This document shows, piece by piece, positions 2 to 2,033 of a DNA stretch of 7,558 nt. Every line of letters starts with the position of its first letter. Position 1 is the first letter of the stretch. Source of the DNA: Pseudomonadota bacterium (GTDB taxonomy: Bacteria; Pseudomonadota; Alphaproteobacteria; Acetobacterales; Acetobacteraceae); assembly GCA_021780935.1 (NCBI GenBank), contig JAJXXT010000104.1, positions 1-7,558 of the forward strand. The letters run 5' to 3'. Made by a program: the position numbers and the translations under genes. Below the pieces are notes generated by a model, which worked only from the letters and a program-made list of their open reading frames with translations, did not search any database and was not told the origin of the DNA.

Positions 2-220
2 GGGGAGGCGGCGCGCCGCGCCCGCGCGCTGCGGCTCGCCACGGACGGGGCGATCCTGCGCATGGCGACCGCGACCCCCGCCGCGGCGATGCGCCTCGGC
101 GATCGCGGCCGTATCGCGGCCGGCATGCGCGCCGATCTCGTTGCCCTGGACGCTGGCTGGAACGTCGCAGCGGTCTGGCAGGGCGGTCGGAAACTCGAGA
201 GCAACCTCCGATCGGTCTGA
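2..220 (+). CDS. 3' end of an amidohydrolase, probably N-acetylglucosamine-6-phosphate deacetylase (5' truncated by window)
   Basis: Reading from base 2 gives 72 codons ending in TGA at 218-220, with no start inside the window, so only the C-terminal end of the protein is seen. The visible part contains LRMATATPAAAMRLGDRGRI, then AAGMRADLVALDAGW and VAAVWQGGRK. This is the typical end of amidohydrolase-superfamily enzymes, where the chain returns to the small beta-sandwich, and the 'ADLV.LD ... V..VW..G' wording fits NagA best. NagA removes acetate from N-acetylglucosamine-6-phosphate in the cytoplasm, feeding amino-sugar and cell-wall recycling. All metal ligands lie upstream of the window, so the substrate cannot be confirmed; another amidohydrolase such as a dihydroorotase-like enzyme is possible. 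The last codons, from GAG at 197-199 onward, lie inside the dispersed repeat at 196-320, so the final seven residues (ESNLRSV) are probably an acquired tail. Confidence 0.62.
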   Translation, partial: GEAARRARALRLATDGAILRMATATPAAAMRLGDRGRIAAGMRADLVALDAGWNVAAVWQGGRKLESNLRSV

Positions 221-320
221 GCCGGTCCGGCTCGGGCAGATCGGCGGCTGCGCTGGATTCCAAGTTTCCTGGAGCGGGAAATCAGGCCAGATGATTCTAT
301 CTGGTCGGATATTGCTCTAG
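196..320 (+). repeat. Dispersed palindromic repeat, copy A (125 bp)
   Basis: This segment is homologous to the reverse complement of 1905-2033. Outside a variable 24-28 nt middle section I count 85 identical positions of 101. It begins CGAGAGC (196-202) and ends GCTCTAG (314-320), near-complementary ends. Hairpin I has arms 210-224 and 228-242 with loop GTC. Hairpin II pairs CTGGAGCG (269-276) with TGCTCTAG (313-320) and the 12-nt arms 281-292 and 299-310 around loop GATTCT. Its lower AT content and CTAG motif contrast with the coding DNA. The first 25 bases overlap the upstream deacetylase-like gene. It resembles a MITE or REP-type element; no transposase is present. Whether it works as a 3'-UTR structure is inference. 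Confidence 0.8.
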
Positions 321-330
321 CTGCGGGCAA

Positions 331-370
331 AGAAAAACCGTTCCGGCGGCACGCGGCCACCGGAACGGTT
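331..370 (-). terminator. Intrinsic terminator of the aldehyde dehydrogenase gene
   Basis: On the minus strand, 17 nt after the TAA stop of the aldehyde dehydrogenase gene, an 11-bp perfect stem AACCGTTCCGG/CCGGAACGGTT (right arm 360-370, left arm 336-346 on the plus strand) is followed by a U-rich run (TTTTTCTTT, including the stem's last bases). A stable GC-rich stem with a U-tract is the classical Rho-independent signal. The U-tract occurs only on the minus strand, so it serves the minus-strand gene and not the plus-strand deacetylase. Confidence 0.88.
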
Positions 371-386
371 CACCGCCCGCCGTCGG

Positions 387-1832
387 TTATGCCGAGGCCT
401 GCGTCACGAACTTGGTGTTGAGATAGGCTTCCATCGCCTCGAGCCCGCCCTCCGAGCCGTAGCCGGAATCCTTCATCCCGCCGAACGGCACTTCCGGCAG
501 CGCGAGCCCGTGATGGTTGATCGACATCATGCCGGACTCGACGGCCGTCGCCACCTTGTTCGCGGTGGTCGCGGAACGCGTATAGGCATAGGCGGCGAGC
601 CCGTAGGGCAGGCGGTTGGCCTCCGCCACCGCTTCCTCGGTCTTCTTGAACGCGACGACCAACGCCAGCGGCCCGAACGGCTCCTCGTTCATCGCGCGCA
701 TGTCGGTCGTGACCTCGGTCAGCACCGTAGGCTCGAAGAAATTGCCCTTGTTGCCGATGCGCTTGCCGCCGGTGCGCAGCGTCGCCCCCTTCTGCACCGC
801 ATCGGCGACGAAGCCTTCCATCGCGGTGATCCGTCGGGCATTGGCCAGCGGCCCCATCGTCGTGCCGGCGTCGAGCCCGCTGCCCACCTTGATGTTCTTG
901 GCGATGGTCACGAAACGATCGACGAACTTCTCATAGACGCTCTCCTGCACCAGCAGGCGCGTCGGCGCGATGCAGACCTGGCCGGCGTTGCGGAACTTGT
1001 TGGCGGCGAGAATCTTCGCCGCGGCATCGATGTCGGCGTCCTCGAACACCAGGGCCGGCGCATGGCCACCGAGCTCCATCGTCACGCGCTTCATGTGCAG
1101 TCCCGCCAGCGCGGCGAGTTGCTTGCCCACCGCCGTCGAGCCGGTGAACGAGATCTTGCGGATGATCGGATGCGGAATGAGATATTCCGAAATCTCCGCG
1201 GGAATCCCGTAGACCAGTTGCACCACCCCCGCCGGCACGCCGGCATCGGCAAAGACGCGCACCAGCTCCGCGCAGGAGGCCGGCGTTTCCTCCGGGCCCT
1301 TGAGGATGATCGAGCAGCCGGCGGCGAGCGCCGCGGAGAGCTTGCGCACGGCCTGGTTCACCGGGAAATTCCACGGCGTGAACGCCGCGACCGGCCCCAC
1401 CGGCTCCTTGATGACGAGCTGGTAGACGCCATCCGCCCGCGCCGGGATCACGCGGCCATAGGCGCGCCGGGCTTCCTCGCCGAACCAGTCCATCACATCG
1501 GCGCCGACCAGGAGCTCGCCCTTGGCCTCGGCCACCGGCTTGCCCTGCTCCATCGTCATCAGTGGCGCGATGCTGTCGGCGCGCTCGCGCATCAGTACCG
1601 CGGCGCGCTTCAGCACCTTGCCCCGCTCGAAAGCGGAAACCTTCCGCCATGCCGCGAAGCCTTTCTGTGCCGCCTCCAGCGCGCGGTCGAGATCGGCCTT
1701 CCCGGCATGCGCGACGGTGCCGAGCGGCTCGCTCGTGGCCGGGTTCAGCACCGTCAGGTGCTTGCCGCCGGCCGCCTTGGTCCAGGCGCCATCGATGAAA
1801 AGCGAGATCTCGGGATAGGTCGCAGCGGACAT
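387..1832 (-). CDS. NAD(P)-dependent aldehyde dehydrogenase, succinate-semialdehyde dehydrogenase-like
   Basis: This is a complete 481-residue protein, the normal length for soluble ALDH-superfamily enzymes, which oxidise an aldehyde to its acid with NAD(P)+. All core elements are visible: WNFP at 154-157 with the oxyanion-hole Asn155, cofactor Lys178 in [14 protein letters not shown] at 229-233, general base Glu253 in MELGGHAP, catalytic Cys287 in [17 protein letters not shown] at 383-388 with Glu384, and the C-terminal [11 protein letters not shown]. Wording and length are closest to enzymes annotated as succinate-semialdehyde or ketoglutarate-semialdehyde dehydrogenases. The second cysteine of the C-x-C redox pair known in some succinate-semialdehyde dehydrogenases is absent (C-I-A), so the substrate remains open. 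The ATG start is supported by GGAGA at 1839-1843, six bases upstream. It stands alone, flanked by two inverted copies of a repeat, with its own terminator. No gabT-like aminotransferase is adjacent within the window. Confidence 0.93.
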
Positions 1833-1868
1833 GAAGCGTCTCCGTTTGCTGGTGGCTGGGTTCGGCCC

Positions 1869-1897
1869 ATTCTGCGCCAGCGCGCGGCCGTCGCCAA
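1869..1897 (-). promoter_or_regulatory. Possible sigma-70-type promoter of the aldehyde dehydrogenase gene
   Basis: On the minus strand TTGGCG (1892-1897) and CAGAAT (1869-1874) are separated by 17 bases and match the -35 and -10 consensus at four of six positions each. Transcription would start near 1862, giving a leader of about 30 nt that contains the GGAGA ribosome site. It lies between repeat copy B and the gene. Matches this weak occur by chance in such DNA, so this is a candidate only. Confidence 0.3.
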
Positions 1898-1904
1898 ATC
1901 CCGG

Positions 1905-2033
1905 CTAGAGCAATAGCCGACCGGACAGCATCATCAGGTCGGCTTTCCTGCTCTAGGAAACTTAGTATCTGGAGCAACTTATCTGCGGTCGGCCTGAGCC
2001 GGACCGGCTGAGGCCGACCGGAGGTCGCTCTAG
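1905..2033 (-). repeat. Dispersed palindromic repeat, copy B (129 bp, inverted relative to copy A)
   Basis: Read on the minus strand this copy starts CTAGAGC (2033-2027) and ends GCTCTAG (1911-1905), perfect 7-bp inverted ends, with a third CTAGAGC in its centre (1956-1950). Hairpin I has 15-nt arms 1987-2001 and 2005-2019 with a single mismatch. Hairpin II combines an outer 8-bp pairing CTAGAGCA/TGCTCTAG with inner arms 1915-1926 and 1933-1944. The terminal TAG (2032-2030) is the stop codon of the alpha-E gene, so the repeat begins exactly where that reading frame ends. Transcripts of the alpha-E operon would carry the element in the same sense as copy A in the deacetylase transcript. No U-tract follows hairpin I, so if it terminates transcription it is not a classical intrinsic terminator. 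It also lies just upstream of the candidate aldehyde dehydrogenase promoter. Confidence 0.8.

Follow-up and report, generated by a model that had tools for sequence, protein, structure and literature searches.

What kind of sequence is the repeat that occurs twice near the start of a contig from an Acetobacteraceae genome, and why does it lie at the ends of genes? The window, which is the whole stretch of 7,558 nucleotides analysed here (contig JAJXXT010000104.1 of assembly GCA_021780935.1), contains two inverted copies of it, copy A at 196-320 on the minus strand and copy B at 1905-2033 on the plus strand. Both had been proposed in an initial annotation and both are real. An inverted-repeat search of the window returned the pairs 249-321/1904-1976 (73 nt, 79% complementary) and 198-243/1986-2031 (46 nt, 85% complementary), and in a BLAST search of the host genome copy B hit copy A at 77% with an E value of 2.5e-22. 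Our answer, to which we give a probability of about 0.87, is that the repeat is a non-autonomous mini-transposon of the IS630/Tc1-mariner type, i.e. a miniature inverted-repeat transposable element (MITE), which inserts at CTAG and tends to land on stop codons.

The host genome (G000) is a metagenome-assembled genome (MAG) of 2.45 Mb in 238 contigs, 67.9% complete. Copy B gave 41 BLAST matches in it at E<=0.01, one of them nested, which leaves 40 places including both window copies and 38 beyond them. The expected further copies thus exist, and the earlier description of a multi-copy, structured family with CTAG-type ends, resembling MITEs or repetitive extragenic palindromic (REP) sequences, holds. 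The family consensus, CTAGAGCAATATCCGACCAGATAGAATCATCTGGCCGGATTTCnTGCTCTGGGAAACTTnGAATCCAGAGCAACTTATCTCCGGTCTGCCTGAGCCGGACAGGCTCnGACAGATCGGAGGTTGCTCTAG, is about 129 bp long, has CTAG on both sides, contains no gene and comprises two hairpins; its end type is GAGCAATATCCG. Matches at E<=0.001 were found in five of the 40 genomes searched, the host included: the four genomes of its genus (G000, G001, G002 and G003, three of which are 68-77% complete) and G018, a 98% complete genome from another genus of the Acetobacteraceae. Among the candidates scored with a covariance model (up to 150 per genome; one palindrome may count on both strands), there were matches at E<=0.01 numbering at least 138 in G000, 14 in G001, 65 in G002, 3 in G003 and at least 138 in G018. 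Copy number is very unequal among relatives, which argues for amplification and not for a conserved cellular part. In a genome collection of 84,980 species, the pattern CTAGAGCAATATCCGNNCNGATNG, which fixes the first 15 bases and is silent on variants there, retrieved 106 stretches, from records titled Acetobacteraceae, Rhodospirillales, Roseomonas, Rubritepida, Rhodovarius, Paracraurococcus, 'Asaia bogorensis' MAG, Minwuiaceae and Proteobacteria.

A common plan of hairpin, short linker and second hairpin is seen in many of the more than 80 copies inspected, while others are cut or solo. Stem sequences diverge strongly between genomes, with the pairing retained. Solo units were flagged 13 times, an upper bound since several visibly belong to pairs; the clearest are the 52-nt unit of L082/L273 (G001) and the 50-nt unit of L207. 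A pattern for joints at a shared CTAG had five matches. L246, L250 and L255 resemble joints between units, L017 is not a joint, and L217 (1-250, from an Acetobacteraceae MAG) is a joint between IS630 and the element, in which the mini-transposon sits on the CTAG flank of the IS630 element. The element is modular, since each hairpin has inverted-repeat-like ends of its own and units are found both alone and joined; repeated landing on a CTAG carried by an element could be the source of joined units. Elements of similar plan were also observed in a Minwuiaceae MAG (L209, L213, L249, L251, L255 and L269). The larger locus L041 (contig C154 of G000) holds four copies or part-copies within 19 kb; those at 1590-1701 and 18045-18173 lie outside the window.

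Filled sites were compared with empty ones in a sample of G003 (60 contigs, 664 kb). The 13 filled/empty rows correspond to 12 insertion sites; a G002 locus was excluded because the near flank on the other side of each copy is absent. The orthologous place in G003 lacks both window copies. Two sites are exact to the base. At L052 (G001) against L172 (G003), the empty sequence is GAGCTGGTGAT CTAG CGCCGGG (GGTGAT-CTAG-CGCC), and the filled site has CTAG at both element ends; L108 (G000) against L166 (G003), with the empty site GACCGC-CTAG-GCGACC, carries a composite copy. At both, one CTAG has become CTAG...CTAG. CTAG also stands at or within the unaligned gap of the empty site for copy A, L015, L053 and L095:4181. 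The gaps total 309 nt, for which the CTAG density outside gene interiors predicts about 0.46 tetramers; six sites have one. As the initial annotation had observed, all CTAG tetramers of the window lie inside the repeats (n=4, at 317, 1905, 1953 and 2030); the window has no excess of the tetramer (8.4 expected from shuffles, 4 observed).

The element ends point to the transposase involved. A comparison with IS5- and IS630-type sequences targeting CTAG or TA had been suggested, and IS630 gave the answer. The right ends of IS630 copies have the consensus GAGCGTTTTCCGATCA (35 ends, including that of the truncated frame of L282) and are followed by TAG in 21 of 35 and by TAA in 8 of 35, hence by TA in 29; the left ends, located in 19 of the 34 examined, stand next to CTA in 16 and to TTA in 3. 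IS630 copies with both ends located are about 1.05 kb long. The element in G000 matches GAGCGTTTTCCGATCA at 12 of 16 positions with its left end and at 11 with its right end. The left ends in G002, HF4 and G045 match at 13 of 16, and the right ends in G045 and G046 and the left ends in G018 and G042 at 11 of 16. Null means were 3.8-4.6 matches of 16, and the null fractions among the 13,596 16-mers after TA in G003 were 7e-5 (G000 left), 3e-4 (G000 right) and 0 (ends with 13/16). When the null was restricted to 16-mers starting with GAGC (n=184), the fractions equalling the remaining 12 positions were 0, 1.1% and 0 in the same order. A chosen set of 23 IS630 ends gave the same consensus and scores as all 35. 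Compared with IS630 ends of the same genome, the element matched at 12 (G040), 12 (G041), 11 (G018) and 12 (G042) of 16 positions, with fractions of 7e-5 to 1e-3.

The IS630-type domain DDE_3 (PF13358) was found in 8 of 12 element-bearing genomes, and relatives of the transposase piece of G041 occur in 98 of 249 genomes of the family at E<=1e-25. The IS630 gene of G041 ends in GATCGGAAAATGCTC-TAG, which is CTA-GAGCATTTTCCGATC read inward, and the IS630 end in G042 is CTA-GAGCGGTAGCCGATCAGT. At a contig edge in G040, the C-terminal part of an IS630 gene precedes ACGGATCATGCTC-TAG, with an element sitting on that CTAG directly behind it. A separate observation comes from G003, where a 53-bp hairpin with CTAG ends (L289:2084-2136) lies just downstream of an IS630 copy with the differing ends CTAGTGCTYTGAC.

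We propose that the element ends act as IS630-type inverted repeats (TA, then GAGCA...) which would be recognised by an IS630 transposase that moves the element in trans. Insertion into the TA within CTAG would duplicate TA, converting one CTAG into CTAG-element-CTAG, with TA and not CTAG probably being the true duplication. IS630 reportedly prefers the TA in 5'-CTAG-3', as is said to have been found by Tenzen and Ohtsubo in 1991. In the sampled relative G003 the target CTAG is scarce, lies mostly outside gene interiors and often consists of C plus a TAG stop, on both strands where two convergent genes meet at it, so that insertion would tend to fall onto stop codons. TAG would then be rebuilt at the element ends, proteins would remain unchanged, and copies between convergent genes would persist best.

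The G003 sample has 158 CTAG sites against 584-676 expected; 47 are called stops (4 on both strands), 68 are intergenic and 43 lie inside genes. G003, not G000, supplied the background CTAG sites, and it also served to train the codon-usage caller with which genes were called. A neighbour's stop codon is seated in the terminal 4 nt of 50 out of 77 element copies (Fisher p of 3e-7 against all CTAG sites and 9e-4 against sites not inside genes). This set comes from G000-G003, counts the parts of composites separately and leaves out 19 duplicate loci, 14 G018 loci and hits of 60 bits or less. Neighbours are convergent for 38 of the 66 copies with both neighbours called, compared with 25 of 97 CTAG sites and 79 of 539 gene junctions. 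The excess over CTAG sites implies a bias beyond target choice, perhaps of survival, and better survival is the cause that we would favour. None of the counted copies lies inside a called gene, which alone is no proof since a gene cut by the element would be called as two pieces; the comparison of proteins at the 12 empty sites is better. Protein ends are equal in the filled and empty states for at least one gene at nine of these sites. Both genes end unchanged at L052 and L108, and at least one does at L011, L095:705, copy B, copy A (the aldehyde dehydrogenase), L103, L086 and L074. In G003, the convergent proteins of L172 (LIELVI-stop and LAGITRR-stop) and of L166 (LAGMTA-stop and RAPLVA-stop) end at one shared CTAG, which is a stop on both strands, and in the filled genomes at L052 and L108 the two convergent proteins end at separate TAGs. 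In the window, the right CTAG of copy B (2030-2033) supplies the stop of the Alpha-E gene, whose TAG is 2030-2032 on the minus strand. The protein ends in NAAS-stop, against NAVA-stop in G003, where the element is absent and the orthologue stops at the same residue.

Several observations weigh against an IS630-derived MITE homing to CTAG stops. Six of the 12 empty sites (copy B, L011, L074, L086, L095:705 and L103) have no CTAG, and an IS630 element with matching ends was not found in the four genomes of the genus itself, three of them 68-77% complete; these two points lower our confidence slightly. No DDE_3 match was obtained in G000 or G001, the IS630 copy of G003 has other ends and that of G002 ends in CTCCATGTCAGG. 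G043, from the Minwuiaceae, holds related elements and has no DDE_3 match, and it is the sole carrier of a Y1 transposase among the 12 genomes. Beyond GAGC, the element ends match the IS630 consensus at only 7-9 of 12 positions, and the right ends in G018 (9/16, null 0.011) and G042 (8/16, null 0.059) are poor. At a CTAG target, duplication of TA and duplication of CTAG give the same outcome, also at the two base-exact sites, and are indistinguishable. L015, L053 and L095:4181 have no clear shared gene end. At copy A the amidohydrolase ends differently, in LESNLRSV-stop against GGERI-stop in G003, seven codons earlier. The gene runs seven codons into the element, its frame reading GAG at 197-199, and a TAG stop originally at the edge of copy A was probably lost later.

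Other mobile sources have been weighed against the same data. The element's two hairpins are imperfect, leave internal bases unpaired and have a tetramer at the foot, features that recall REP sequences and bacterial interspersed mosaic elements (BIMEs), mobilised as single-stranded hairpins by REP-associated tyrosine transposases (RAYTs) or other Y1 (HUH) transposases, for which the conserved tetramer would be the cleavage site; insertion 3' of a tetramer would likewise turn one CTAG into two. However, Y1_Tnp (PF01797) was found in one of the 12 element-bearing genomes searched (G043) and in none of the four genus genomes, three of them incomplete; the search was also negative for G018, 98% complete and with at least 138 model matches. 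The ends match IS630, and neither carries a GTAG or CGTC tag. We therefore regard a Y1 origin as very unlikely. IS5-type (DUF4096) elements are likewise located at CTAR-like sites here, and descent from one of them seems no more probable to us. Their domain (PF13340) is found in 11 of the 12 genomes, with candidate ends at CTAG, CTAA or TTAG sites, some of which start with GAGC, and a Pseudomonas syringae MITE of probable IS5 origin is described as duplicating CTAG or YTAA (PMC3189936). This origin was rejected on its ends, since 13 picked IS5-type ends match three element ends at 0-8 of 16 positions, against 11-13 for the IS630 consensus.

The remaining alternative is a resident RNA element, i.e. 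a 3'-UTR (untranslated region) hairpin, terminator or mRNA stabiliser that is kept by selection at each site. Folding is strong on both strands: z scores are -5.1 and -3.1 for the two strands of copy A and -8.2 and -7.3 for those of copy B, with 0 of 200 shuffles equal in each case. The copies lie at 3' ends of genes and between convergent ones more often than CTAG sites do, and compensatory changes are found between genomes. Yet the sites are not conserved, as G003 has 3 model matches and lacks the element at the 12 compared sites, a scan detected no T-run terminator in the copies, covariation is weak, there is no strand bias among copies and the location is partly explained by the CTAG target. 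This makes selection for a resident RNA at each site extremely improbable.

The initial annotation had read pair-preserving differences between the window copies as selection for RNA structure, and this was not supported within one genome. We used a structure of 47 pairs in two hairpins, drawn from folds of single copies, and an alignment of 27 G000 copies from which L012, L021, L022, L026, L032 and L038 were left out for insertions or ill-fitting ends. This alignment replaced a first, gappy one of 33 sequences, for which the RNAalifold structure was weak and had an alternative hairpin, GCTCT..AGAGC, at its centre. Paired cells amount to 83.9%, against 82.8 +/- 0.4% with shuffled partners. Deviations are balanced between G-U (87) and A-C (98), as expected if both strands decay alike. 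Some excess exists in two-sided cells (30 against 21.3 +/- 3.6 shuffled); pairs with two-sided change number 14 against 11.2 +/- 2.1, and the covariation score is 0.135 against 0.109 +/- 0.007, reached by none of 500 shuffles. The drawn structure is better than slid versions in cells paired, score and pair types, and for the pair at columns 17/36 the variation is close to that of two independent columns. We confirm the T-A to G-C difference at 282/309 (columns 12-40 of the hairpin II alignment). The A-to-G changes at 271 and 276 yield G-U pairs, as annotated, for RNA from the plus strand of the window, but A-C mismatches on the other strand.

Compensatory change is weak within one genome and clear between genomes. 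Among 18 hairpin II units from different genomes (3 from G000), two-sided cells number 21 against 6.8 +/- 2.4, reached by none of 500 shuffles; the rows are related, so this and the following shuffle figures are no probabilities. Pair types are C-G and U-A at 8:8 for one pair and A-U, U-A and G-C at 7:4:3 for another. Four pairs have a two-sided change against 2.5 +/- 0.7 (26 of 500 shuffles), and further pair types number 11 against 9.9 (146 of 500). The score is 0.166, against 0.011-0.093 for slid controls. These results fit a structure that is kept or renewed in source elements and decays in a largely neutral way after insertion. The compensation may be equally compatible with selection and with a renewal in which one arm is copied onto the other.

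By Pfam, the window encodes an amidohydrolase C-terminus, an aldehyde dehydrogenase, an Alpha-E domain protein, a circularly permuted ATP-grasp protein and a branched-chain amino acid type ABC transporter; one of the eight proteins has no match. Copy A lies between the 3' end of the amidohydrolase gene and the convergent aldehyde dehydrogenase gene, with hairpin II at 269-320 and hairpin I toward 196. Its CTAG end, the target-site tetramer, is intact at 317-320. The outer tetramer (196-199, plus strand) is now CGAG and would originally have been CTAG, judging from the family consensus. The amidohydrolase tail encoded by the element (197-220, plus strand) is ESNLRSV, with a TGA stop at 218-220. 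Copy B is flanked by two minus-strand genes, with the 3' end of the Alpha-E gene on one side and the start of the aldehyde dehydrogenase gene on the other. Its hairpin II (1905-1956, plus strand, 52 nt) has CTAG and inverted-repeat-like sequence at both ends, and this kind of unit is also found alone in related genomes. Hairpin I (1969-2033, plus strand) has a four-base unpaired bulge at 1979-1982 on its 5' side in the drawn structure. The left end of copy B (1906-1923, plus strand), TA followed by GAGCAATAGCCGACCG, is an IS630-type terminal repeat, judged by the family-level end comparison. A search of the window against Rfam gave no match above the gathering score. A terminator and promoter scan returned one terminator-like site, against 0.9 expected from shuffles, and no promoter; the site is a hairpin with a T-run (335-371, minus strand) downstream of the aldehyde dehydrogenase gene and outside the element, and no T-run terminator was found within the copies. 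An inverted repeat similar to this hairpin stands in the empty site of G003.

In its way of working the element resembles an IS630-derived MITE, and it most probably is one, comparable to RUP of Streptococcus pneumoniae, which is described as a folded, high-copy repeat of 107 bp with ends like those of IS630-Spn1 (PMC3049150). Both are short, folded and numerous, with ends resembling a resident IS630 element. The host is another one, RUP insertions are reported to disrupt genes, and, unlike RUP as far as that account describes it, the present element has two hairpins with inverted-repeat-like ends, a CTAG target and stop-codon seating; the comparison is with the description. IS630 is stated to target CTAG (PMC6811581), and for ISY100, of the IS630 family, TA duplication by the transposase in vitro is reported (PMC2170065). 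The element shares the CTAG target and matching ends with IS630, whose copies of about 1.05 kb carry a transposase, whereas the element is gene-less and about 129 bp long. MITEPsy1 of P. syringae, a 100-bp MITE that inserts at CTAG or YTAA, differs in the IS5-related ends (GGAAGGTCTGAAAAAG...) and 4-nt duplication given in its description (PMC3189936). REP/BIME sequences and the CGTC REPs of Alphaproteobacteria are described as paired intergenic palindromes, often downstream of genes (PMC3733652); according to that account they measure 20-40 bp and bear GTAG or CGTC tags, whereas the units found here are about 52 and 65 nt long, end in CTAG and carry IS630-type repeats. Br-REP1 and Br-REP2 of Bradyrhizobium are presented as 3'-UTR repeats, the former with three palindromes and lying between convergent genes, and the consensus strings given there are, by eye, unlike the element (PMC5082802). 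Our literature search, mostly of openly accessible papers, found neither this family nor a MITE that rebuilds stop codons.

A selfish element that does little harm is the default reading of these results. A larger role is possible, although we hold it doubtful: as a mini-transposon homing to stop codons, the element would use a target that is often a stop, rebuild TAG, split a shared CTAG into two stops and give both mRNAs a 3' hairpin, whereby many genes would gain uniform, lineage-specific 3'-UTR structures, some of which may have become functional in 3'-end formation or mRNA protection. At copy A, part of the element has become the tail of a protein, probably after loss of the rebuilt stop. 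An IS630-derived MITE would provide a source for an abundant repeat class in the Acetobacteraceae. It would also give a simple rule for harmless high copy number, in which the CTAG target is scarce and often a stop codon, and the TAG is rebuilt on landing, so that the element can spread with little damage. For REP-like palindromes at 3' ends in general, it advises caution, as their position and pair-preserving changes may reflect target choice and the evolution of source elements, and not selection on each RNA.

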